The notes under the pieces are model-generated. The model saw only the letters and a program-made list of their open reading frames with translations. It had not been told where the DNA came from and ran no database searches. The position numbers were made by a program, and so were the translations under genes. Below, one piece after another: positions 3,001-64,000 of a DNA stretch of 64,000 nt. This DNA comes from Halichondria panicea. Lineage: Eukaryota > Porifera > Demospongiae > Suberitida > Halichondriidae. Where the stretch lies: assembly GCF_963675165.1 (NCBI RefSeq), contig NC_087392.1, forward strand, positions 1,379,001 through 1,443,000, read 5' to 3'. The stretch's first letter is position 1. Every line of letters starts with the position of its first letter.

Positions 3001-6000
3001 TTTCGTCAGCAAGTTGTCACTACTCTAGTCTAAACTTCATAGTTCCCCATTTAACTCACAAGCAATTACTGCAATTTTGCCAATTTTTGGAGCCACTGTA
3101 CTTTACTATCAAGGTGTTGCACTCTAGCAATAGAGATAATGCCCTTTGATGTGTTGGAAACTATTGCTGCAAATTTAATTGCCTGTCTGTTGTGAAATAA
3201 TAATTTTAGCACTAAATGCAAGTGCAAAATATTTGTGTTTTGCACTTTTGTATAGGTCTATTCAGGCTCTATTGTTGGCCTCTGAATAGGCTGGGGTGAT
3301 CATTATCGGATATCAGAACATTCATTTGAATGAGTGAATCTGTTGTTGTGGGATGTAGCTTGAAACCACATGGGTGATTAGGAACATGGACCTTGCACAC
3401 TTGTTAACCAAGACTCATTGAGAGTGCACCTACGTGTACTACAGCCTGCCAATTCTAACCACATGCTCTACACTTTCTGGCAAGCCTTCTTATTGTATGT
3501 ATATATTAGTGGTAGCTAAAGTGTTCCTATTATAATTATCGTTAGTTACCATTTGTTCCCTCATATAAGGAATTGTACTTTAGACCCCCCCCCTTGCATA
3601 GAGTGTATACGAAGTGTTAGCCTCAGGGCAAAACCCCAAATATTGAAAGATAAATTTTTACTGCCGGAACTAAGAGCATGTGCTTTGTAAATGTCCTGAA
3701 GTGTTTATATCTAAAATAAACAATTCTCAGGCATCTTATAATCATGCATGCACCTTCAATAAAGAGAAGATTAGTCTCCTTGCCTTGTAGAGGTTAGTCT
3801 GGTCAGTGCTCAAATATAAGATGGCTAGCTGCCAAACGTGCATTAGCTACGAGTGGAGTTTGTACAGATTCACTGACCCGTGTCAGGAATCGCTAGTTTG
3901 CTAACACAGTGGTATTGTGTTGCTATTATTTTCCATATGTCAGGTTTCTTGTTCTGCTATGTGCATGTTCATGATTGACGTATGCTTTGAAGTAAATTCA
4001 ATTTGTTACCTATAGAGTTAAGGAAGTGCACTCTTAGTAAGACACTGTTTAAATATTAAATCTGCATTCACTTATGTGTTGCTCTTTGCTCTATTCAATC
4101 GTTTGGTGTATGTGCTCCACTGATTTTTTGTGTATTCTTTTGGCCTATACGACATTTAGTCTAAAGATACTCTTCATTTTGTATCGTTATTCCAACTTTA
4201 AACTTAGCGCCATGGTGATCAAATACTGCATGAGCACCTCTGTACCTCACATGTATCTATAGGCACACTCAATTGGTTACAGCTGCTGAATATGACCTGA
4301 GGCAGTGTCCTCTGTTGGCTGCCCACTGGTAGTGGCAGTGTGTGATCAGTCACTGGGCTGGCCTTTGCTCTGCCCTGGGAAGTTAGAGCTTGTGAGGTAG
4401 CTAGTGTGGAAGTGTGGCAATGGGTGGCCCACAAAATGGAGATTAGTATCTTCACATCTCATTTCGCTAAAAGGTGTTCCACTGAAGTGGTAGGAACAGT
4501 TGCATCGTAGCTGCATGGCTTGTTAGTGAGTGCACATGTATTAATTAACCTCCTCCCCCCAACGCACACACCATGCTAACACACAGTCAGTCTACATGTA
4601 CAACGACTGCAAGAACACGTAGTGGAGAGCTTATCATCACAAAACAGTACGTATAAATTATATAACTGGTTTTTAGGTGTGCCAATTATTGACTTTTTAT
4701 GGGCAATAATGTAGTCCCCTCAATCACGTCCGGTTATGATCATTGTTTGTGTTTATATTCCATACTGAATGTATAGTGAGCTGTACGTCCTACGTAGTTG
4801 ATTTACGTGTAACTGTTGAAAAGCTAAATTGCTAGGGAAAGTTTAGTTCTGGGACTGTTTACCTTGCTTCTATAAGGTTTCTTGAATTCTTGGCAGCCAG
4901 TAATGACATTAGTGGGTTTGCAGGTACTTTCAGCACAGTGCCATTTTGTCTACACTCCTTTGTCTTCTCCCTTACATGGCGAAGGGGATACACACACAGT
5001 CTTGCAAACTGTAGCTTTGTGGTATAGTTCTGTAATTACCCTGTGTCGTCTTTGTTAGTATACACTTTGAATTTAGTTCGTTTACGTTGGGTCCTCTAAT
5101 CTAATCCTAGCGCAAGTGTTTCCCAATGTTTGATTCCACACATTAGCTTCTTGTTGTCGTCCCGCGTTACACCAGTCCAGTCTGTCTCACCACTAGACAC
5201 TACTTGTGACCACAAACCTACTAACTAACTATGGTCTATTGTGCACTGTGGGAATACACTGGATGTCTTATTGCACACTCCAGATAATTTTTAGCATCAT
5301 TTCTGCCAAATTCCCCTCTAGACTAAATCCGCTCACATGTGCTGAATAGGCTTGAGGTGTTTGTTTATGTACCTGTGTGTGGTTTATTATGAAGATATTT
5401 CATGCCTATTAAATCCCATATGTTAAATTCCTTGGAGAAACTGATCCAAATTCTTAGTCTGGACCGCAAGTATTTTACAGTATTGAATTTATATGTGATT
5501 AAGTTGCCATGCTCAATTTATCGTGTGCATTACACGCATTCTGTGGTGAGTGGAATATACACCAGACAAAAGACAAAAGTGACGCAAAATGATATTGTTC
5601 CCATGTACATCTGTTCCGTTGGGTTCCCCTAATGAAGTGGTAGTTCCATTACTCTGGCAACCAGACCCTCTTTGGTTTGGCAAAGACTTGTTCTCAAACA
5701 AAATTCAATTTCTTCCGCTACATTCTCAAGCTTAGTGGTTCTGTCTCAAGTGACTACATGTACATGACCTCTTTTCAAGCCCCAATTATGCAGTACATTG
5801 CGTGGCTATTGTCACCTTATACACACAACTACCATGTTTAGTGCTGGCCAGGTATTGCCTATGTTTAGCTGCCAACCAGACCTGTGGTGTCTTTGTGTGC
5901 CTACTTGCTCAAGTTCTATTGAAAGCTAGTGTGTAATTGCACAATGATAAGACAATATGTACAGTGAACTTTGTCAACCTTTATGTAGCCATTCATTCCA

Positions 6001-48823: not shown

Positions 48824-51800
48824 ATGGCTGATGGAATAGACATACAAGTTGTAGCAGCTAGCCCCCCACCTTTACAAAATAACGATGTTACTGAAGCTCT
48901 CACTGACAAAGAAATAGAACAGTACGGTGGGCTAAATTTGTCTGATCGAATGAGAGATGTTCTCCAACGGCCAAGAGGTAGTATCTCTTTGGAACAACCT
49001 TCTCCAGTCTCCAATCTAAGACGGCCTTCAATTATTGAAATGGTGAATAGTGGAGGCCTTGTTTTCAATCAGCGTGGCTCATGCGAAATCAACTTGGAAA
49101 ATCTGCCTGCACAAGATGTTGAAATGATGTACCACTATCATGGTCATAGAAGAGGCTCTTTCCAACCTAGCGAGAACCCGTCATGGAACCAGAGTCTGGA
49201 CACAAAGGACTCCTTAAATGACGACCAAGAAGAAACCGAAGATAAACAACACTGCTGTTCTCACACACGTTGGAACCAAAAATTCGACTCTCCGATCCTC
49301 GAGAAGCATCTGAGTAGAACTGTGATGGAGTTTCTTCGAATACGTTTCCGTTTTGCTCTGTTGTTTATTGGTCTCTTTACGCTCATCTGGCTTGTATTCT
49401 TTGCTGCCAGCATTCCATTCACCCCCCCTGACTCAGTTCAACCAGTCACGTTGAGTGTGAATCTTTCCGTGTTCAGTGTGTCTTACAATGTTGGCTATGT
49501 GATTGGAGCGGCAGTGTTGTTTGTATGCACCATAGCTCTTCTGTTTTTCACCTATTCCCAATATTATAGGTTTATTGCAGTACCACTATCGGTTATTTTA
49601 TTCATTGTTCTCATGTTCTGCTCGTTTGCTTTGGCACTGGCTTTGCATTTTGATCGAGAAGTACAAGGATTCCTCACCATGGCGTATGTGGCACAATTCA
49701 CAATCACCTCAATTATAATACTGATGATTTTTATGCTTTCCCGAATGCCATTTTGGGTTTCTATAACCATGTGTCTTTTGTACCTTGTCATTCTAGAAAC
49801 CCTTCTAGCCATTTTCACATTCATTCCCAGGGCCCCCGGAGTTATGGAAGGTGGACCTCACTACCCTCAGAACTTTTACGTCAATTCACTTGTAGCTCGT
49901 ATCATGTTTTACGTTTGTCTCATTTCAGTTAGTGCGAGCACCTCTTATCTTTCTCGGCTACGACAGAAAGTCACCTTTTGGAAGATAGCACAGTGTGTCT
50001 TGTCGCAGAAGGCCCTTGAGCTCGAACGAGAATTGGAAGAGAAGACAATCCTCTCAATGATGCCAAAACCATTTGCAGAAGATCTGATGAATGTTCAAGT
50101 TCAAATGGCATTCATGCTCAAGACAAAAGTGGGAATTGAAAGCCTTGACCCACAGTTCCAGTCTATATCCGCACCATTTAACATTTGTAGCATGGAAAAT
50201 GTATCTATTTTATTTGCCGACATTGTTGATTTCACTAAGTTTTCCTCCTCTCTCTCGGCTCCAGAGTTGGTGGGGATTCTGAATGATGTATTCTCAACCT
50301 TTGACGAACTAGCCATGCAGTGCAATTGTGAGAAGATCAGCACTTTGGGGGATTCCTATTTCTGTGTTTCTGGGTGCCCTGAGCCAGCTGCAGACCACGC
50401 CGATAACTGTGTGAACATGGGACTGTCCATTGTTAAAGCTCTGGAAGAATTCAGGAGAAATACTGGTCACCCAGTAAGAATGAGAATTGGTATGTATTAC
50501 TACGAGCTTAAATAGATTAATTTTACTATTGATGTTTTCTCTGTTGTAGGTATTCATACTGGCTCTGTGTTCTGTGGTGTTATGGGAACGAAACGATTCA
50601 AGTTTGATGTCTGGTCAAAAGATGTGCGAATCGCCACCAAGGTAGAATCGACCGGAAGTGCTGGTAAAGTCTTGATCTCCTCAGCCACTAAGCTGTTTCT
50701 CTCTGACGACTACACCTTCCAAAGACTCAACACTCCCACTGGTGTCCCAGAACTTGCTGATCTCAAGCTCTACTTTGTCGAACTCCCCTCTCTCATGACT
50801 GACCCTGACATGGAATCAAGCATGCTCAAAGATGATGTAGAGTTGGAGCCATACCGCTCATTAACCGCTCGCCCGTCTCTCTCTACTTGTGAGTCTCCAG
50901 TTCGTAAGGTGGCTGCGCCCCTCCCCCTCTGTCCCTGCTTGCGGGCCCAACACACCACTGCCCCTGTTGGGAGGCCATTGCAGCCAGCTACCTCGATTGT
51001 GGACATTTTTTCTCGTCAGAAACAACTACAGCGATGCACTTCGTATGTGGAGCTACCAGTACCCAAACCTACAGACGAAAATAATGACAAAATTGTGGAA
51101 CTCATGGAAGAACAAAATGTGAACTTTGAAACGTATTTCGACCCCCAATTGAAAGCTATCTCCCTGTACTATCAGGACCCAGACTTGGAAGCATCTTATC
51201 GAAACCACGGACAAGACTTGGACGATGGTTCTAACATTGGTATGGCTGAAATCACGTTGGGATTCCGGATAACCAAGCTAAGCTACATGATTGACACCAC
51301 TGTTTTATTCATTAATTACCTGCTAATCATAATTGGATCTGTCGTTTGTCTGAACTCCGAAGGCACACTTGGGGAAGTCTGGCGTTCTCTGCTAGCTGTC
51401 GTTGTATTCGGTCTGATTATTGACATACTAATCATGGTCTTTGTGTCTGCTGTTTTTGCCCCAAAACTTTTCCCTAAGAGATTTGCGAAATTTGCCACTT
51501 TTATTGTGAACTGGTATGCCAGATCCATAGTTGCACTCTTCATGATCTACTACCCTATGACTATTGTGTATGTGAGCATAGCACAATGTAAGACTGGATT
51601 TGGATCAGTGGCAGGCCTGGCTCATGTCCAAATGGCCTTCTTCATAACAGTTCTTGTTCTGATTAGCAGTATCTCATTCATGGATGTCAGCTACTTTGTC
51701 AAATGTATTGGAGGCTTTCTGTCAGCTGCTCTGGCAATTGGTATGATTGTGGGCGTTCACATGACCCTCTGTATTGCCAACTCTAAACTGTACAATGAAA

Positions 51801-52765
51801 CACTGTCTACGTCTGCAACTCCGACCGATTCGGCCAGATTGGAGTCAGTGACACATAATGGTCGCATCCTCCCTACAGAGTCCCCTGAATCGTATGTGAT
51901 GACCTACTTCACAAGGCACGTGGCCCCCGAAACAACAGTACTTTTGTTACTAGTTCTCATTTTGCTCATGGTTGTCAATCGGATGTCTGAAGTGTCTCTT
52001 CGTCTCCATTTCATCGCTCGAATTGAGGCATCGGCTCGAAGGAGATTGGCTCGATTACGCAAGGCCCAAGCCGACTGGCTACTATTCAACATTATACCCG
52101 ACCACGTTGCTAGGGAGTTGCGAATTAACGGAAAGTACTCGCAAGACCACGAGTGTGTGGGTGTCATCTTTGCTTCTATTGTCAACTTTCGAGACTTTCA
52201 AATGAACACACCAAACAGTGATGAGGAGTCCCTTCGAGTGCTCAACTTAATCATCAGTGAGTTTGATGCTCTTTTGGATCGTGAGCAATTCTCCAGTATC
52301 GAGAAAATCAAAACTATTGGTAGTACATACATGGCTGCTTCTGGTCTACCACTGGATTCACAAGGAAGAAATGTAAAGCACCTTTTGGAACTTGTGGATT
52401 TCTCAGAGAAACTCATTGAAGTACTAGAGCAAATCAACACACAAATGCCTGGGTTTGTTTTCAGAATGCGTATTGGGTTCAATTTTGGACCTTTGACGGC
52501 TGGAGTGGTTGGAAGTAGGAAGATGCTGTTTGATATATGGGGTGATACGGTGAACGTTGCTAGTCGAATGGACTCTACTGGTTTAGTGAACAAGATCCAC
52601 ATGCCTGAGACCTGTTTAGAAAAACTCTCTCCCTATGTTAATCACGAGACATACAAAGTTGTCAATGTGAAAGGAAAAGGCGAAATGAAGACTGTGTTCA
52701 TTAGACTGGGCTCAAGACAAGAAGATGATGTACCTCCCCACAGAGCAACATGTGAACTTCATTGA
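48824..52765 (+). CDS. ADCY9: transmembrane adenylyl cyclase, ADCY9-like, 1293 aa
   Basis: A class III membrane adenylyl cyclase making cAMP from ATP at the plasma membrane. There are two coding exons, 48824-50489 and 50550-52765, with a single 60-bp intron inside the C1 domain. The layout is N-terminal cytosolic tail, six hydrophobic segments, C1, six more segments and C2. C1 has SILFADIVDFTKFS with the metal-binding Asp466 and LGDSYF with Asp510. C2 has VGVIFASIVNF, IEKIKTIGSTYMAASG (purine-binding Lys near 1141), MLFDIWGDTVNVASRM (Asp near 1217, then Asn and Arg), so both halves look competent. FKFDVWSKDV in C1 and FASIVNF in C2 point to the type 9 branch. Such a low intron number is odd beside 14-23-exon neighbours. 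It starts 239 bp after ISWI and is convergent with RPS3A. Confidence 0.95.
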
Positions 52766-53332: not shown

Positions 53333-54957
53333 CTAGACGCTCTCCAGTACAGGTGGCTCGAAAGTATCAGTGCCTCCCTTCCCTGAGGCACTATCACCGT
53401 GGAGGTCCAATAATCTACCAACTGTGTGTGTTGTGTGCGTGGAGAGGGTAAATTCTAGATTCTTAAGGCAGAGCTGATCTATTATGCATAAATTCGTATT
53501 ACATTTATAGATATCATTCTGAACACCTAGTTCAAAACTCACCATCAAACTTGGGTTTCTTGAGGACTTTGACTTTTCTTATAAAGACATCATGCAGAGG
53601 GTAGATGGACTGACATCTCTTCTCAATATCCTTGCCAATACTGTCCGGGATCCTGCACAACGATCAAACAAGATCAATATTATAGTGGACGTACCAATAG
53701 CTACAAAATTTAGCAGCGTATCAGATGTGCTCTATATATATTGGTAGGTTAGGAAACACAACTATAATTACATAGTTATAAAGAATGGTCATTTACTTAC
53801 AGTTTGTTGACTGTCTCCTTGAGGTCGATCTGACTGATCTCTCGATTCATCGTCTCCACCATCTTCTTGCGAATTTGCCTGCACTGTGATGACTTGGCAT
53901 AAGAGGTTTTCTTGATCTGGTTGGGTTGTCTCTTTGTGAATCCAATGCAAAACACTCGCAGGAGGTATCCATCAGTTGTCTTCACATCAACATTAGCTTC
54001 AATCAGTGTCTGAGAGGAAGGAGGGTACACAGAAAATAGACAATTTATTAATTTTGTGTAGCAGCATATCGGGCATAATGCTATCAAAAGATATTATATT
54101 TTCTACCTAACAATGGAGGGAGGCAATGTAGACTTTCACAGCATGGGAGGTAATTGAAGCAAAAGCAGTTGCCAGTATAGTACATACGCAACAAGACACA
54201 CACATCCTTACCTGCCATTTCTTGACAAGAGCACGAAGCTTGTCGGTTGTCATTGTCATTCCATGGAAGTTAGTGAGGACACTTTTCCCCTGGATATCTT
54301 CTGAGATCAGACGGAACTTTCTGAATGATTGCTCGTCATTTTGGAGGTCAGCTAGAGAAACCTCAAATACTCTACCCTTGAGTCCATCACTGGCAAGCTC
54401 TAGAGTGGGAAAGAAGAGAGAGCACAATGTCAGAGTGTGTAATGGTAGAGGGGCCGTCTTGGAAAGGAATAACTAGCGTATGAGTATAAATACAGCTATA
54501 TTTATGCGGCCTCAGTACAGAGTTGTCCGCATTGTCGATTGAACTAAGACAGGGATAACTTGTGATCATCATAGACAGTGCAAACTCGGCAAGAACTTTA
54601 GATCTAAATACATACACACTGCCTAAAAGTTTAAGCGTATGAAAAAATACGACCACTTGCAAACATACTTTTTCCTTGAGTTCTGGTGACTAAAGTCTTG
54701 CCAATGTTTCTGACTGCAAACATGGACGGGGCTTTGACATCATACCAGTCCTTCTTGGTAAAGGGATCAATTCTGTAGCGTGGGTATAGGCACAAGTAGT
54801 AACTGCATCCTTTCTAATCCTTAGTCTACGAGCACTTTTACTGTACTAAGAGCATAGGTACTACTTATATGGATACAATATTTGACGTAGATACTCACAT
54901 CTTTTTTTTTGATCCCTTCTTCCCCTTGGTTAGCCTCTTGTTCTTACCGACAGCCAT
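53333..54957 (-). CDS. RPS3A: 40S ribosomal protein S3a (eS1), complete, 6 exons, 252 aa
   Basis: eS1 is a small-subunit ribosomal protein on the platform near the mRNA exit. Minus-strand exons 54899-54957, 54669-54772, 54212-54399, 53801-54009, 53543-53652 and 53333-53421 join in frame to 252 residues; human is 264. The match runs through the whole protein: [73 protein letters not shown] and [11 protein letters not shown]. It ends EPPVLESV (human EPPVQESV). The C-terminal linker is shorter than in human. A 5' oligopyrimidine tract precedes the ATG, and intron 2 holds a candidate C/D snoRNA. Confidence 0.99.
54505..54580 (-). ncRNA. candidate C/D-box snoRNA in RPS3A intron 2
   Basis: On the minus strand an exact box C (ATGATGA, 54566-54572) and a box D (CTGA, 54512-54515) are about 61 nt apart, inside an RPS3A intron. 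Between them AGTTATCCCTGT directly precedes a D'-like CTTA. It is complementary over 12 nt to the universally conserved ACAGGGATAACT of 28S rRNA domain V (rRNA sequence from memory). The fifth position above D' would direct methylation of the second G of that GGG. RPS3A hosts snoRNA U73 in mammals. The terminal stem looks weak, so exact ends are approximate. Confidence 0.7.
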
Positions 54958-54967
54958 GATGATTAGT

Positions 54968-54980: not shown

Positions 54981-56504
54981 TTCCACGTGCTTCATATTTA
55001 TGTACATGCGCATAAAATCTCTGTGGGGAATAGTTGTCAAGCAGAGGTCGTCAAAGTTAGAATCTTGCAGAGTAAGCAGCCACACCCAGTTATGCAACTC
55101 TGCCCACCACTCCCCCCTAGCTAGCTAGCACTCTGAGATTGACAGTGCAGTGTAACTAGTGACAGTGTATACAACAGTGAATGAATAGTGAACAAATTGG
55201 AGCTTTATTTTGCTTCTCATATATGCAGGTGAGTTGTTCTTGGTCTGTGTGTCTGATGCATTACATCTCCTGATGGTGTTCTGGTGTGCAGAGTCAGTGT
55301 ACATTGTAGCTACATAGTAGTCATGTGTATTAATTAAAAACAATCTCCAATTCGTGTTGTTTTTTAATGTGTACATTTCAATGTACGTAGTTGGCTCATT
55401 GATACACATCATTAGTACGATCATGATTAGTATCTATACATGATTGTACGTCTGGTTAGTATAAGTATGCAATCATTGAAATGTGCTCAAGAGATACGAT
55501 ACAGTAGATCTAGTGATGTCGGTACATGGTGAACCATCTCAGTATTCTGAGACAACAGTGAGTGGGAAATCTTTCTCACTCTCTTACTAACAGTTTTTCA
55601 CAAGCATCTCTTTAACATGAGGGAATATACAGCAACCTGAACCTATATCCTGAAGTGCTAGTACTGTTGGGACACAGATTCCCTTAAAGGCTCTGTTTTG
55701 ATATTTCCTGCATGTAAATGTACTTCTCATATTACTTAACCTATTGTGTATAAGACTGTAACTAAATACAAGCCCCCCTCAGTCTAAGCTGTGCAATAGA
55801 GCATGAAAAAACTGTACCACAGAAATTCATAATGTTCCCTCAGGGGACTTCAAAATAATAAATAACTGTGTGTGCTATTTTCTTACCTGTCCAAGAGTCT
55901 CTGCCAGATATGGCTTGTGTTTACATGAGAGGTACTCCTCCACTGTGTGGGTGGATATTGGTTAGACCTAGTCGTTGTGGCTTGTACGAGCTACATGATG
56001 TTACTGCTACTACGAGATATGCCTCGGGGGGGGGGGGGGTACTGTAGAAATAGTGCACATATAGCTTTAACGACTTTGGCCTGAGGTTTTGTTGAGTGGT
56101 AGGTTTGCAGAAAGCCCACTTAACCTAATATGTGGACTGTGGTGGTCATGTGTTGTGAATAATGATTAGCATGTAATTACTGAAATAGTTTAAGTACAGT
56201 ATAAGCTTCCCCCTTGCTGTGTGTGTCAAATACTTGTGTCGTGTAAAGTGATCTGTCATCATGTGTTAATACAATGTACAATATAATGTACAATGACGGA
56301 TAATTTCGTGCCTGTAAAACACATAGGACATTATATATCATGTAGCTGATAATTGTCTTGTAGCAAACAACATCATCCTTGTAAGGACAATATTTTGCCA
56401 GCTACAATGCCAGCTACAAAGCTAGCCTTGGCCAAATTTTCTTCGTATATGCTGTACTAAAGAATGTAAATGTCAATTATGTGAAGTTTTTCTTTGGTGC
56501 CCAG
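54981..56504. other. divergent region between RPS3A and the SOD-SH3 gene
   Basis: A probable non-coding first exon of the plus-strand gene ends near 55228 at ATGCAG-GTGAGT and is spliced to the acceptor CCCAG at 56504. A G-homopolymer is at about 56027-56038. I see no coding exon. Confidence 0.45.
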
Positions 56505-56513
56505 ATGATCTAA
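56505..56513 (+). promoter_or_regulatory. minimal upstream ORF (Met-Ile-stop)
   Basis: ATG ATC TAA begins at the first base after the predicted 3' splice site and ends five bases before the main start codon. Such a short uORF could dampen initiation at the main ATG (inference). Confidence 0.5.
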
Positions 56514-56518
56514 GGTAG

Positions 56519-59500
56519 ATGAAGATGTTGATGAATGGCAGGTGTTGGTGGTTTCTCTCTCTACTGTTTCTGTTCCTGCGACCGACCCTCGGACTGAGAG
56601 TGAGGTCAGAGTTCAACCAGCGAGGCGTGAGCGGGAGCATCGAGTTCTCACAAGATGGACCAACCGATAACACCACCATTACAGTCAATCTGACCGGTGT
56701 GTTTCAGTGTGTGCTTGCTTCAGTGTAGCTAGAGGCCTATTTTATATACATATACATGACACTGTAAGGTGCTATAGTTACGTTGTATTAAAATTGAAAC
56801 GCATGTGTATATACATGTACATTTATGTTTGTTCATAGATCAATTGTTACTCTTAGTCAGAATCATAATCTACTACTCTATTACCCGCCCCCCCCATACC
56901 CATACAGGTCTCAGTCTCCACGATGATACTCTCTTCCAGTGGCATGTTCACCAGTATCCCTTTCCGCTGAATGGTATCCCTAATCCATGCGGCGTGGCCA
57001 TCACTGGGGGCCATTACGACCCCTTGGGGGCAAACTCAAATCAAAATTACACCCAGAACTGTGCTCAAGATCCAAGCAACTGTGAAATTGGTGATTTGAG
57101 TGGAAAGTTTGGTCTGCTCAACATTTCTCAATCCAATAACGTGATTGCTCAATACATTGACTCCACCCTATCACTACATGGTGTGTATAGTATTATTGGA
57201 CGCTCTATAGTCGTCCACCTCTCGGGCGGAGCTAGATTGGTCTGTGCGAACATTGACTACCCACAAGATACAGATACGGCTCAATCCGATATACTCATCT
57301 CTTCGTTTAGAAACCAATTCACTGGATATGTACATTTCAGGGGCCACACTGACAGCAACACTTCCTCTGTGTACACCAATCTCTTGCGAGTAGCTGGGAA
57401 CTCAACTTCGACTGGTCATAACTGGCATGTACACGTGAAGCCTCTGGATGTGAACGGTACTGATTGCTCTCTTGCTGGACCACATTATAACCCGTTGAAT
57501 GTCGATGTAAGTAACAATTATTCTATTTTGTGTAACCCTACAAGGCAAGAAAACTGTGAGATTGGTGATCTCTCGAATAAAGGCTCTCCGTACAGTGTTG
57601 TTAATCGTGTTGCTAAGCAGTTTTACACCGATCTATCTCTACCACTATCTGGAGACATGCTGTACATTGTCAATCGCTCAATTGTAATTCATCAGGAGAA
57701 TCGTGGTGGCCCTAGAATAGCTTGTGCTAATCTGACTCGATTTACTCCCCTGGAAGCTGTTGTGAACTTTAATAACGAAAACGGGATAACAGGCAGCATT
57801 CGATTTTCTCAGCTATCACTTTTTGACTACACATTCGTGACAGTTAACCTCCAAGGTTTGGCTGGAATGGCTGGAGGCTATCACGTACATGTCCTACCTG
57901 TTCCTCCTGAGGAGCCTGAGAGTTGTTTATTGACCCTGGGGCACTGGAACCCCACTGGAGTGGTGTACAATGACAGCATCACGCGACCACTAACTAGCGA
58001 TGAGTACGAGATAGGAGATCTAAGTGGGAAATTTGGAGGACTAGGCGGTCTCAATGAATTAATGGAAACATATTCGGACCCAAACGTGCCTTTGTTTGGA
58101 TTGTACAGCATTGTAGGACGATCTGTTGTGATTCATCGAACTGATGGATCTAGAGTGGCTTGTGCAAATATAGAACTAATCAGACCGGTTTTACGAGTTA
58201 TGGTATCTGTTAATACATCCAGCTTGAGAGGACAGATCATTTTTACTCAGCCAGCCGACGATCCATTCTCTGAGACGACAATCACCGTGGAATTGATGAT
58301 CCTACAGATAATAAACGTGACTACGCCCACTCCAAGTCCCACCCTCAGTTCTACCAACATACCCTCCATGACGCAACTTCCTGTTGAGGTTACTACTAGC
58401 CTATTCCCCTCTCCAGACACTACCTCAACTGTGGGTGCAGCGTCCTCGTTCCAGACTGTGTTTCCATCCCAGACAGTGCAGTCCATTCCAGTGTTCAGTT
58501 CCAGTGTGGACGTTGGCAGTGGTGACAGTATGCTCCCGTTTGGACCAACAAGTGAGCAAAATACTGTAAAAGCATAATCGGTCTTGTTTGTGAGATATTT
58601 GCCATTCTAGTGAGCGTATTCATTCATTTATTACTACATGTATTTGTGATTAATATTTGTGTTCTCCTCTGCAACTACAGCACCCGTTGCTCCAACACCC
58701 AGTGTCAGCCCCACCCCGATGTCTCGAAGGAGACGAGCCGTTAACAGTCGTACAAGAAGGCAGGCCGTGGGCGGAGTGGTCGGCTTCGATTGGAGCGTGA
58801 GGATGGTCTCTCAAGATTCCCCCATGGACTGCAATTCTCTGCCTGTCTTTGACCTAGCACCAAGGTTGTTGTGGCTTCCTGTGTGTTTCTTTAGAGCTCG
58901 TATTTGTGGCTATAAAACACCTTCAATGTTACAATATAAACAGTATTTCAATATGAACAGTATTTTCTAAAGCAATGTGTTTACACAGTATATTGTGTTA
59001 TTGGTGTGTACATAGTACACTTCTTTCAGTATGCCTTTGAGAGATAAACGAAAACGACGTAATAATTGATCAGCCCCATTTTAATGAACTACATGTACTC
59101 TGTATGTATTATAATCTACATGTTTCTGGAATGAGATCATTTATTAAACGTATTCACCTCCTCTCCCTCACAGTGACCCAACACTTTGCTCCCCGACCAT
59201 CCCCCTGGCATGTTCAACTGGTGATCTCACAGGGAAACATGGCCCCCTCTCACTCCCCGCCACCCCTGGGACATTCTCGGCCGTCTTTACTGACCCTTCA
59301 CTCCCCCTCTCTGGTCCACAGTCGCCATTCACAACACGAGCAGCTGTTCTTGTACAGCAGATGGGTGGATCCGTGGAGACGGCAACATGCTCATTGGCTG
59401 GCATGGTCGAAGAGCCACCTCCAATGACAATTAATCCCCCTACCACACTGACTGAGACCACACCTACGATGCAAACCACCACACCACCACCAGCAACAGG

Positions 59501-62500
59501 TATTGAAAAACGATACCAGTCTCTTAAACTGTTTGACTCCCTCCCCCCCCCACACACACTCATACACTGATTTAGCTGATACTGTAATCATTGGTGCCGT
59601 AGTGGGAGGTGTGCTAGGTGCTCTCCTGTTAGTGGGTGTAGTCATCCTACTCGTCTGTTGTTGCTACTGCAAGTCACAGAAGTCAGAGTACAAAGTGAGC
59701 AAACAAGCAGCTCTTGAAATGGGGACTGTTCGTCCATCCAAGCCTATACTCGGAGGTGAGCTATAGTTCTGCACGTGTAAATGCATGTGCTAGGGTAACT
59801 AACTGACAGGAGTGATTTGAATGCTCTTGTAACAAAATTGAGAGCTATTGATGGTATGTTTTAGCGAACAGTAAGTATTAAGCCAAATCATTAATTTGTG
59901 TTAATCCATGTAGGTTCACCATTATACTGTGCAGTGTGATACGTATTACTCTTATAGTTAACTGAAACCTGATATGCATGTACATGTACCACCCTCCACC
60001 CTTGTACACATTCTCCTCGTCTCCACAGTGCCCCACTATCGAGCACTCCACAACTATGCCCCCCAGAATCCGGATGACCTGGAGTTGGAGCAGGGGGAGT
60101 GGGTGACACTAATGGAGACCCCCGCTGGTGGGGGTTGGTGGAAGGGGAAAGTCACGGAGGGAGGGGAGGGATGGTTCCCACGTACCTATGTGGAGTACAT
60201 AGATAGAGACGCTGAGAAAAAGAAACAACAGGATGGTGAGTTTACGAACTTTATGCTGTTCCGTTTTATTTTTATTTTTTAGTAGCTGTGTATAAGGTTG
60301 TATGTTTAGTTATGTCAACACACACTCATCCTCAACAGAGAACTTCTTGATGGCAGCATCGGCCATTGTGGCGGCCTCAACATCATTCAACGTCCAGCAT
60401 CCCTCCCTCACACAGACCCGTCATCAGACACTCCCCTCAAAACCCAACAAGAGAGCCTTGTCCTTCAGCAAAAAGAAGGAAGACAAGATTGACTTGGAGA
60501 AGCTTCAGAGGTCACAAACGATGAACCGTAAGATTGATATTGACTCCACCCCTCGTGCTCTGAGGAAACTCGATCGACCTTACCTAGATACATTTAATAG
60601 GCAAGTTATCTTTTTGTTGAGTGGATCCAAAGCAATTTGGTACTACTCACCTTATAACTGCATTTATATTTGTGTATGTTTTGTAAGCTATGTAAATGTA
60701 CAGGAGTGCATGAACTAATTACTGTCCCTTTATAGTGATGAAAATGGAGAGGCTACAATCATTTCTAATGAGGGAGGAGAGGTAGTGAGTAATGGCGGGA
60801 CGCTACCAAACACACCCGTGAGTCAGAGGAACGTAGCCTTCTATGCCAATTCAGCAGCTATCGAGGGATCACCTCAGTCCCTAAGGGCATCAGAGCCGGT
60901 AGGTGGAGCTTCAAGTCATGTGACTCTAATAATTATAATGATCATGTAATACTGCAGGAGTATGAAAACGGAGAGCCAGACACTGATAAATACATAGCCA
61001 AACATAATTTCGATGGGTCTACGGATATCGAGCTCGAGCTGAAGAAAGGAGAACTTGTCACCGTTGTAGAGAAGTCGGACGGAGGGTGGTGGAAGGGTGT
61101 GTGTGAGGGGAGGGTGGGATGGTTCCCCCAGTCGTACGTTCGTCCTGCTCCTGTAGAAGCGAGAGAAAGCATGTCGGCCACCCAGCCAGCAAACATGGAG
61201 GAGATGATGAAAGCAGGTACAGTAGGTGTCTCTGTCTGTTTGAATGAATTGTTTGAGTGGCCACTTGAGTTTGTTCGTTCAATTTAAAATACTAACAGTG
61301 AGCTCTTTCATTTTTTTGGCAACTTAATGGGGGGAAAGCCCAAAATGTGTCCGTTAACTGAACACACCATAGAGAACTCAATTAAGTTATGGCTGATCAG
61401 AATGCTTGGATTTGTTACATGACACAAATACATTGTCAATGAGTTTAAGAAACAAGTTTATGGCACTCAAATTAATCCTGTTAATCATTTTCATGCCCCC
61501 TCCCCCCCACCAGGTGGTGATCTGGAGGCAGTAGAGTACTGCTCCATCTTCCCCTATCAGTCGGACACGGAGGGTGACCTTGTGTTTTCCGAGGGAGACA
61601 CTGTGCTCGTATATTGGGCCCAGGACAATGGCTGGTGGTACGGGGCAGTCGGTTCCACACAGGGATGGTTTCCTGGCTCTTTCGTCGAGGTAAGTATGGG
61701 TTGTGTAATATTCTGAAAGTCTCTGTAGGCATAGTGTTTTAGTTGCATGGTCATGGTTTATATAGAAGGACCGATTTCTAAGAGGTACATGTACTGTACA
61801 CTGAGCGTTGCTCACTGCACTAGGCCTGCTTTTGTACACATAATTATGTTGGAAGTACATGTAACTACTAGCATGTCTGATTCAAGATCATAATTTCCTT
61901 CTCTAGCCACTGATTGAATCTCCTGAGCCTCAAGATGAGAGACGAAAGGAGAGTAGGAGCTCGTTCAAGAAGATGTGGTCGCTACGTAAGAAGTCACGTG
62001 ACAAGTCTAAAGATGTTCCTCTGCTGGAGGAAGACAACGACGAGAAGTTACCGACAGCTAGCGAACCAGTGGGTCTGGAAGGTGAGTGATCCAATTGCCA
62101 TGGATGTACATGTACTTACTCAGTAGATGCATTTGCCATACTAATTTACATGCCATGCATGTAGCAACATACATGTATGGCAGCTGACAGAGTCCCCAAA
62201 CCATTGATTAGACGGGGGTAGGGGTATAGTTGAGCATCTTTCAACAGCCATAACTTTAGTACCGTTGATCCAATGTCAACAATTTTGTGATTTTCTGAAA
62301 GCTTAGAAAGAGACCTTTCAAATGATGTGTTTAAACATTAGGGCCATAATTTTTCGGCTTTCGGCTTTGGACCATGGGTATGAGAAAATTGGCAAATACT
62401 TTTATCAAAGTGAGATAACACCGTTTGAAAGGTCTCTTTCCAAGCTTTTTCAGAAAATAAAATTGAAATATTGGATCCACGGAATTTAAGTTACATGTAC

Positions 62501-64000
62501 TATAGGCCTACAGTCACTGACAATACTATCGAAGAGTCATGACTAGCCTCTGTTTGCCCTCAGGCCAACTCCAGGCAGCACTGGAGAGACGACGATCATT
62601 CGGTCGTGGACGTACCCTGGCAGTAGACGAGGAGGTGGCCCAGGGGGGAAGGAAAGAAAAGGGGCGTGGTGGGATGGGTGCCGTCGCTGATTTTATGAGG
62701 CGAAGCTTCAAGAAAACAAAGAGCAGGGACGAGCCAAAATATGAGGAGAAAATTGTTGAGAATACAAAAATTGATGAGATTTCTTCAACAACAAAACCGC
62801 CAGAAGAGGTTAGTTGTGATTAATTACTGCTGCAACACATAACATGAATTAAAAAAGTGTTAAGCTTTGTTCGTTCCTTATATGGAAAATGTTTCACTAC
62901 AAAAATGTATCTACATGTACATGTATATAACAGAACCACAGTGTGTTTATTCCATATAAGGAACGTGCAATGCTCAATGCTTTTAGTGATGTATTACAGA
63001 GATTCTTTGCAAACTCCAATACAGGCTCACCAAGTAGTAGTGTCTGTTTGCTTAGGTTAGTTCACATCCCTAGTTTCTGGCTTAATGCTGCTAGCCCTCC
63101 TCCTTATAGCTAGCTTAGTCTGATCATAATACTAAATAGTGCACAGCACATAATGAATTGCAATTGTTCTGTAGGTGGTACCAAAACCTGTTACACCACC
63201 AGCACCGTCAAGGTCTCCTCGCAAACGTCTGGACAGTAAGGCTAGACGAGCCCCTCCCCCTCCCCCTACAGCAACTACGCCCACTACACAGGCTCCACCC
63301 ACTTCTACACAGTCTGAACCGTTGAAAGAAGAACCATTAAAAGAAGAGCCGTCCCCTACCAAAGCCAAAGATACTAAGCCACCAACACCTACGCCACAAA
63401 TACGCAAGACCAGCACGGCCGCGGAAGCGGTGAAAACAACTCGCTCATTCTCTACTGCTCAGCCTAACTCCACCCAACCCATGATCCGTCCACGTAAACG
63501 ACTCACAACAACTGCAGGGGGCACACAGAGAAGACAGCCACCACCACCTCCACCAAGTGCGGCCAAAGTTGCCACACCTCCTGTTACACCCTCTCATCAA
63601 GCCACATCCTCAGATACAACAATGATTGCCAGCAGCACTAGTGCAGAGGAAGTCAAGGCACCTGCTAGTGAAACGAAACAAGTAAAGATCCCACCTGTTC
63701 CACCGAGATCCTCGCTACGTCCAAGAGTTCAACGCGTCAAGCGACCAATCAGTCGAATGATCCCCCCACCTCCAAACATTCCTCTCCCTCCCCCTCCAAT
63801 AAGAAAGGCATCCAAAATTGAGGAAACAATTCCGGCTATCAACAATTCAGAGAAGAGAAAGTCAATAGACAAACCATCAGTGGCACCAAAACCAGCTCAC
63901 TTGCGCAGATACAGCACCCCGACATCACCTACAGTTGCTCAAACGAATACAGAGCCTCTGAAATCACCTAAACCAAAACCACCCCCTCCAATGAGAACTA
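56519..64000 (+). CDS. single-pass protein: copper-only SOD-like repeats, TM, three SH3, Pro-rich tail (3' incomplete)
   Basis: Exons: 56519-56696, 56908-58551, 58681-58864, 59174-59499, 59576-59755, 60029-60235, 60339-60600, 60736-60898, 60958-61216, 61514-61689, 61907-62081, 62564-62808 and 63175 to beyond the window, all in phase (about 1608 residues so far). Residues 1-25 are a signal peptide. Three Cu/Zn-SOD-like domains follow. Domain 1 has His72, His74, His95 and His163, Cys87/Cys172 and Arg169. Domain 2 has His233, 235, 252 and 321, Cys246/332 and Arg329. Domain 3 has His385, 387, 405 and 469, Cys399/478 and Arg475. The zinc histidines are missing (CEIGDLS where RHVGDLG is usual), as in copper-only SODs. 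A degenerate fourth SOD unit (482 to about 760) is split by a Ser/Thr/Pro insert. The TM helix is at about 780-805. SH3 domains are near 840-893, 1059-1113 and 1141-1193 (WWKG, GWFPRTYV; WWKG, GWFPQSYV; WWYG, GWFPGSFV). A basic Pro-rich tail with many PxxP runs off the window. Intron 7 is GC-AG. Confidence 0.9.
62240..62490. mobile_element. fold-back repeat, family 2, second copy
   Basis: Inverted arms at about 62260-62325 and 62425-62485 contain GAAAGCTTAGAAAGAGACC and its complement, with ACAGCCATAACTTTA at one end. They match the repeat in the PHKA intron at 29085-29215. It sits in intron 11 of the SOD-SH3 gene. No coding capacity is visible. Confidence 0.6.

Follow-up and report, generated by a model that had tools for sequence, protein, structure and literature searches.

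Structure of the SOD-SH3 gene

The 64,000-nucleotide stretch of the Halichondria panicea genome analysed here (the window; contig NC_087392.1, positions 1,379,001 to 1,443,000, G000:C16:1379001-1443000 in our labels) carries at its 3' end, from 56519 to 64000, thirteen exons that very probably belong to a single gene. This gene is predicted to encode a membrane protein in which an extracellular set of copper-only superoxide dismutase (SOD) repeats is joined, through one transmembrane helix, to a cytoplasmic part with SH3 domains and a long proline-rich tail. The reading was reconstructed both manually and with a script: exons 1 to 13 are in phase across all twelve introns, and the joined frame of 1608 codons within the window contains no stop. 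Eleven of the twelve intron borders are GT-AG and the remaining one is GC-AG (intron 60601-60735, donor AG/GCAAGT). The frame used is the sole stop-free forward frame in 13 of 13 exons; in five of the thirteen a reverse frame is stop-free as well. Codon-usage scores are too weak to distinguish between frames. There are no sequence gaps (zero N in 56000-64000 and in L008:1-2200; such L-labels denote loci cut from the same genome unless called viral). The window cuts the gene, and its last exon runs 1,148 bases further, to L008:2148, which gives a full-length protein of 1990 residues; an AATAAA is found at L008:2417, 269 bases 3' of the final stop, and a TAG stands in frame immediately 5' of the exon 1 ATG. 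The continuous set of in-phase exons claimed in an earlier annotation of this DNA (the original prediction) is thereby borne out, with splice consensus at twelve introns and no stop.

Pfam analysis of the joined 1608-residue protein finds Sod_Cu in three stretches (E 1.2e-33) and three different SH3 models in three stretches each (E 2.1e-34 to 4.7e-30), and the domain search that had been proposed for the translated model thus returns the three SOD and three SH3 domains that were expected. The N-terminal signal-peptide-like stretch was judged by eye; its hydropathy maximum is 1.31, under the threshold of 1.6. Hydropathy in 19-residue windows over all 1990 residues exceeds 1.6 in one segment only (window starts 776-795), that of the predicted transmembrane helix, and the helix is directly followed by a cysteine-rich and basic sequence, CCCYCKSQK. 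The predicted order of signal-like start, three SOD domains, one helix, three SH3 domains and proline-rich tail therefore stands, with the amendment that a degenerate fourth SOD repeat and a fourth SH3 domain had been missed. Introns 1, 2, 4, 5 and 6 are in phase 1, hence the exons that carry the helix (exon 5) and SH3-1 (exon 6) are both of the 1-1 type; phase 1-1 exons are the pattern of exon shuffling, and these two exons fit it. The coordinates of the individual features are collected in Table 1.

Table 1. Features of the SOD-SH3 gene and of its two relatives on contig C2 (window positions unless a locus label is given)
Feature	Position	Strand	Basis or remark
Exon 1: signal-peptide-like start (~residues 1-25), then the initial strands of SOD repeat 1	56519..56696	+	MKMLMNGRCWWFLSLLFLFLRPTLG
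SOD repeat 1, ~residues 25-176, split by intron 56697-56907	56591..57257	+	Sod_Cu 37-164; HVH, GGHYDP, VVH, RLVC
SOD repeat 2, ~residues 185-336	57282..57737	+	HVH, GPHYNP, VIH, RIAC
SOD repeat 3, ~residues 342-485	57753..58184	+	HVH, GHWNP, VIH, RVAC; PDB 4n3t match
SOD repeat 4, first part, ~residues 488-533, degenerate	58191..58328	+	3.0 bits alone in full protein, not significant
Ser/Thr/Pro-rich insert in repeat 4, ~residues 534-636, interrupted by intron 58552-58680	58329..58766	+	Composition, basic runs
SOD repeat 4, second part, ~residues 637-745, interrupted by intron 58865-59173	58767..59402	+	Profile match
Transmembrane helix, ~residues 781-803, exon 5 (59576-59755, phase 1-1)	59584..59652	+	Hydropathy maximum 2.99
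SH3-1, ~residues 839-896, exon 6 (phase 1-1)	60031..60204	+	Pfam
SH3-2, ~residues 1058-1115	60985..61158	+	Pfam
SH3-3, ~residues 1140-1193	61528..61689	+	Pfam
Basic and proline-rich tail, exons 11-13	61907..64000, on to L008:2148	+	Beyond-window reading
CSRP-like paralogues	L009:7593-5782, L010:2094-307	-	Secreted by reading

The predicted extracellular part

Repeats 1 to 3 were aligned with the first repeats of two paralogues (L009 and L010, see below), and this five-repeat alignment also supplied the repeat profile used throughout. The four copper histidines (HxH, H, H), the active-site arginine and the second cysteine of the disulfide pair are invariant in five of the five aligned repeats; the first cysteine precedes the bridging histidine by 8, 6 and 6 residues in repeats 1, 2 and 3, respectively, and falls in no single alignment column. 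The three intact repeats all contain the sequence EIGD, which holds the E110/D113 pair of copper-only SODs, and between the last copper histidine and the active-site arginine there are only 5, 7 and 5 residues in repeats 1, 2 and 3, indicating the absence of loop VII. As a copper-only site predicts, the bridging histidine has been retained, and no other zinc histidine remains; in the same genome, the ordinary SOD retains its zinc-site histidines (QHGG...RHAGD). The original prediction had the copper histidines, the cysteine pair and the arginine correct for all three repeats, and its statement that the zinc histidines are absent has to be restricted, since the bridging one stays.

Repeat 3 matches the Candida copper-only SOD5 (PDB 4n3t) with E 6e-14 and 55.1 bits, in an alignment that spans the HVH, the bridging histidine, the E/D pair and the last histidine. 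When the repeat profile is compared with solved structures, SOD5 is the best single-domain match at 67.5 bits and the best single Cu,Zn SOD scores 55.0; a fused SOD1 dimer has a total of 67.8 bits, which is summed from two domains of 34.2. SOD5 differs from the protein described here in being a single-domain extracellular protein without a transmembrane or SH3 part. NCBIfam has no match for the three-repeat stretch. By these sequence features the assignment of repeats 1 to 3 as copper-only SODs is supported, and the fact that three repeats have conserved their predicted copper-site residues points to selection for catalysis or for the binding of copper. The repeats may share the beta-barrel fold of the solved SODs that they match in sequence.

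A fourth, degenerate repeat follows, in two parts separated by a Ser/Thr/Pro-rich insert. In the full protein, residues 673-730 match the repeat profile with 15.6 bits (independent E-value 1.6e-4). When residues 486-533 are fused to 637-746 and the roughly 100-residue insert is omitted, the score is 31.0 bits (best domain 28.0); with the insert retained it is 28.3 bits; among 200 shuffles of the joined stretch 111 were reported, the top score being 1.7 bits. A Pfam scan of a similar joined stretch did not detect SOD. Repeat 4, the last of the four, contains none of the copper histidines. Serine, threonine and proline account for 52 of the 92 residues 531-622, and the insert contains two basic runs, RRRR (623-626) and RTRR (631-634), which we take to be furin-like from their motif. 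The decayed repeat and its insert could form a stalk, and the furin-like sites may permit shedding of the SOD part.

The genome searches cover the 131-Mb assembly (39 contigs), in which PF00080 matches seven times: this gene accounts for three of the matches, one ordinary SOD gene on contig C16 for two, and two neighbouring genes on contig C2 for one each. The latter two, L009 and L010, encode proteins of 521 and 522 residues with three repeats and without a transmembrane or SH3 part; the copper site is kept in their first repeat, and the second and third repeats, by reading, lack the histidine pattern. Repeats 2 and 3 of L009 score 14.8 and 23.9 bits with the repeat profile (L009 only). We note that these two genes (G000:C2:1464001-1484000) are very similar, with SOD matches about 4.5 kb apart, and the pair is probably a recent duplication.

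The predicted cytoplasmic part

The usual ligand-binding aromatic residues are, by reading, kept in SH3-1, SH3-2 and SH3-3 and degraded in SH3-4. This last domain (~residues 1934-1988; Pfam, E 5.6e-11) closes the protein; it has other residues in place of the usual tryptophan and the final tyrosine (DGFHYG, LHAVE) and may therefore bind weakly. SH3-1 and SH3-2 are 51% identical, and the remaining SH3 pairs are 30-35% identical. The best genomic match to SH3-2 outside its own gene is at C9:5230244 (51% identity over 43 residues), followed by one at C9:4476921, in a gene that reads as NCK-like, with three SH3 domains and the start of an SH2 domain. The tail contains five PxPxPR motifs, which resemble the motif bound by the SH3 domains of CIN85/CD2AP, and ten [RK]xxPxxP sites, some of which overlap one another.

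The best single-domain SH3 chains in the PDB are myosin IB for SH3-1 (40.4 bits), beta-PIX for SH3-2 (52.9 bits) and intersectin-2 for SH3-3 (48.5 bits). The whole-chain lists are topped by GRB2 for SH3-1, SH3-2 and the SH3-2/SH3-3 tandem and by p47phox for SH3-3, where the GRB2 and p47phox scores are sums over two SH3 domains. A p47phox-like identity was considered for SH3-3 and rejected on the per-domain scores: the whole-chain score of 52.5 bits for SH3-3 splits into 36.5 and 14.3, under the 48.5 of intersectin-2, and for SH3-2 the p47phox domains give 36.8 and 19.0, against 52.9 for beta-PIX and 44.6 for the C-terminal GRB2 SH3. Pfam finds no PX domain in the 1608 window residues, and there is none in the last exon. 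The SH3 set thus resembles the SH3 domains of endocytic or cytoskeletal adaptors in general, and not specifically those of p47phox.

Relationship to known proteins

The predicted ectodomain fits the CSRP/SOD4 family: the copper-only repeats are in tandem (three intact and one degenerate), the copper histidines, cysteine pair and active-site arginine are present in three of the four, and the loss of the zinc site, the E110/D113 pair and the short loop VII are all found. The available text of PMC13017621 describes CSRPs as having 4-12 repeats and as being GPI (glycosylphosphatidylinositol)-anchored or secreted, in accord with the original prediction, which had called them extracellular; it also reports SOD activity for an oyster CSRP and, in a tadpole tail model, a CSRP without which regeneration fails. 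In the accessible portion of PMC10416458 a signal peptide and a C-terminal transmembrane domain are common features of the SOD4 family, vertebrate SOD4 has three repeats, and SOD4 is also present in choanoflagellates and Filasterea. CSRPs have been reported from a sea sponge (PMC7730656, as far as its text is available). The protein described here shares with CSRP/SOD4/CUSR proteins the tandem copper-only repeats, the E/D pair, the absence of loop VII and, by prediction, an extracellular location with an anchor (PMC13017621 and PMC10416458, in their available parts), and differs from them in its long cytoplasmic SH3 and proline-rich part. Membrane anchoring is already known in the SOD4 family, and this cytoplasmic part would be the addition. 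The string "SH3" does not occur in the main texts of PMC13017621, PMC10416458 or PMC7730656, and no CSRP with a cytoplasmic SH3/proline-rich part was found among the papers that the literature searches listed (most subscription papers and all animal sequence databases lay outside their reach), which agrees with the statement in the original prediction that no such member was known. The architecture may already exist in animal sequence annotations.

The multi-SH3 adaptors NCK, CIN85/CD2AP, intersectin, p47phox/SH3PXD2 and GRB2 resemble the cytoplasmic part in having several SH3 domains, some with proline-rich stretches, but they are soluble, and the window gene differs in joining an SH3 set to a predicted extracellular enzyme. 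Yeast Sho1 and Fus1 are membrane proteins with a cytoplasmic SH3 domain; they have one SH3 and no SOD. Among viral contigs the repeat alignment matched three loci (L062, L063 and L064) with 26% identity. The translated genes on L062 and L064 look like ordinary Cu,Zn-type SODs.

Neighbouring genes

Upstream, an open frame at 50516-52765 (+) contains two class III cyclase stretches (Guanylate_cyc, E 3.3e-65) with hydrophobic stretches between them, and is like a membrane adenylyl cyclase. Between it and the SOD-SH3 gene, and divergent from the latter, are exons at about 53800-54960 (-) that look to us like ribosomal protein S3a. Downstream, L008:2454-4700 (-) holds a gene that we take to resemble KRR1, and some of it is present once more, as an incomplete copy, at about 5000-5900.

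Predicted role and alternatives

We consider it an even chance that the product is a single-pass CSRP/SOD4 membrane protein whose SH3/proline-rich cytoplasmic part places an extracellular SOD, most likely at endocytic or actin sites. The three intact repeats would take up copper outside the cell and convert superoxide to hydrogen peroxide there, and the SH3 domains would hold and cluster the SOD at particular sites of the membrane, endocytic or actin sites being the likeliest; the PxPxPR motifs of the tail could be ligands of its own or of foreign SH3 domains. The tail would then set the place of peroxide production and would not sense peroxide. The endocytic or actin siting is suggested by the matches to intersectin-2, beta-PIX and myosin IB, which are endocytic or cytoskeletal proteins. 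These matches agree with the link to endocytic or cytoskeletal adaptors in the original prediction; being short, they fix no partner for it. The redox receptor that the original prediction also named as a possibility is a conjecture as regards ligand sensing and the passing of a signal through the membrane.

Several points weigh against the proposed placing of an extracellular SOD by an SH3 part. We infer from the DNA only that the SOD and SH3 exons share a transcript, and the positioning role is likewise something that we infer. Polyadenylation-type hexamers inside exon 2 (AATAAA at 57576 and 58310) and in intron 3 (ATTAAA at 59143) would allow an earlier end; the one in intron 3 would place that end upstream of the helix. 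The frame of SH3-1 also continues open on its 5' side into intron 5, where an ATG (59974) lies 18 codons ahead. The ligands of the SH3 domains are not readable from their sequence. The structure prediction that had been suggested as a test of the copper site was run on alignments of three rows each, all from the window, and gave models of low mean pLDDT (predicted local distance difference test), 35.2 for repeat 3 and 28.5 for repeats 2 and 3 together, which speak neither for nor against the geometry of the histidines. The three-repeat stretch has zero relatives among the viral contigs, and the repeat alignment, used with one peptide pattern, has zero relatives among the prokaryote genomes; the architecture has been seen in one genome, the only animal genome covered.

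It is unlikely, if conceivable, that the protein is instead a recognition or adhesion receptor, in which the SOD repeats are a binding surface, a role already proposed for CSRPs without copper, and the SH3 tail signals. The layout is receptor-like, the ectodomain has 13 N-glycosylation sequons, and according to the available text of PMC13017621 some CSRPs lack copper sites and the oyster protein dominin acts in the recognition of bacteria; such a role sits poorly with three repeats in which the copper-site residues are all kept.

We regard as distinctly improbable that a gene for a CSRP, secreted or anchored, and an adjacent gene for an SH3 adaptor have been wrongly joined in phase, or that the two halves are made mostly as separate isoforms. 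Exon 4 or exon 5, when read on into its intron, soon meets a stop, and could give a secreted or short-tailed form; the ATTAAA of intron 3 could likewise end an upstream transcript, and the open frame and ATG before exon 6 could serve as a separate SH3 start. Phase and splice consensus nevertheless hold across the twelve introns, and the transmembrane exon sits exactly between the SOD and SH3 halves. There is no AATAAA or ATTAAA between 59143 and 62456, and so none right after the helix exon, between it and the first SH3 exon. Moreover, the second part of repeat 4 spans exons 3-4 and leads to the helix exon, whose frame ends only inside the intron.

A coupling to NADPH oxidase (NOX) is very improbable. 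Here the SH3 cassette would act like p47phox and bind p22phox at its proline-rich tail, the SOD would stand beside an oxidase whose superoxide is released outside, and the pair would emit hydrogen peroxide; if NADPH oxidase were the partner, superoxide production and conversion would be linked in one physical complex. Candidate components are present in the genome: a DUOX, with its peroxidase, EF-hand and oxidase-core domains in adjacent frames, a second NOX-like gene, and a p22phox-like gene with a tail exon that reads PSHPPPRPPPQAR. SOD4 has been suggested to act on superoxide made by NOX (PMC10416458, available text), and p47phox- and p22phox-like genes are described from a choanoflagellate and from animals at large, ecdysozoans excepted (PMC2121648, likewise in its accessible part). 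No p47phox was seen in this genome: of 24 PX matches, an SH3 domain is nearby in one gene only, which is SNX9-like by reading, although this search is weak, with flanks of about 1.5 kb, introns, and matches that are exons, some of them from one gene. Against the coupling, the per-domain scores put p47phox below intersectin-2 for SH3-3 and below beta-PIX and GRB2 for SH3-2, and p22phox had no match at E<=0.001 in the whole-genome search. The p22phox-like gene appeared in a loose search with E 0.007, below the cut-off; a single exon scores 25.4 bits with Cytochrom_B558a (cut-off 25) and three joined exon pieces give E 2.7e-10, and the gene probably escaped the standard family search owing to its short exons. 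We note that it lies at L065 (G000:C12 near 273325) and contains EYPRGKR and PPPRPP stretches. Least probable of all, and by our estimate a remote possibility, is that the transmembrane SOD also plays the part of oxidase organiser, with an SH3 set that docks on p22phox inside and repeats that convert oxidase superoxide outside, in which case source, converter and scaffold would be one peroxide-emitting unit in an animal where no p47phox is seen.

The significance of a CSRP/SOD4 membrane protein that places its extracellular SOD by means of SH3 domains would lie in its partners. The function of CSRPs is described as largely enigmatic (PMC13017621, available text), and the partners of the SH3 domains would show where, and with what, an extracellular copper-only SOD works.

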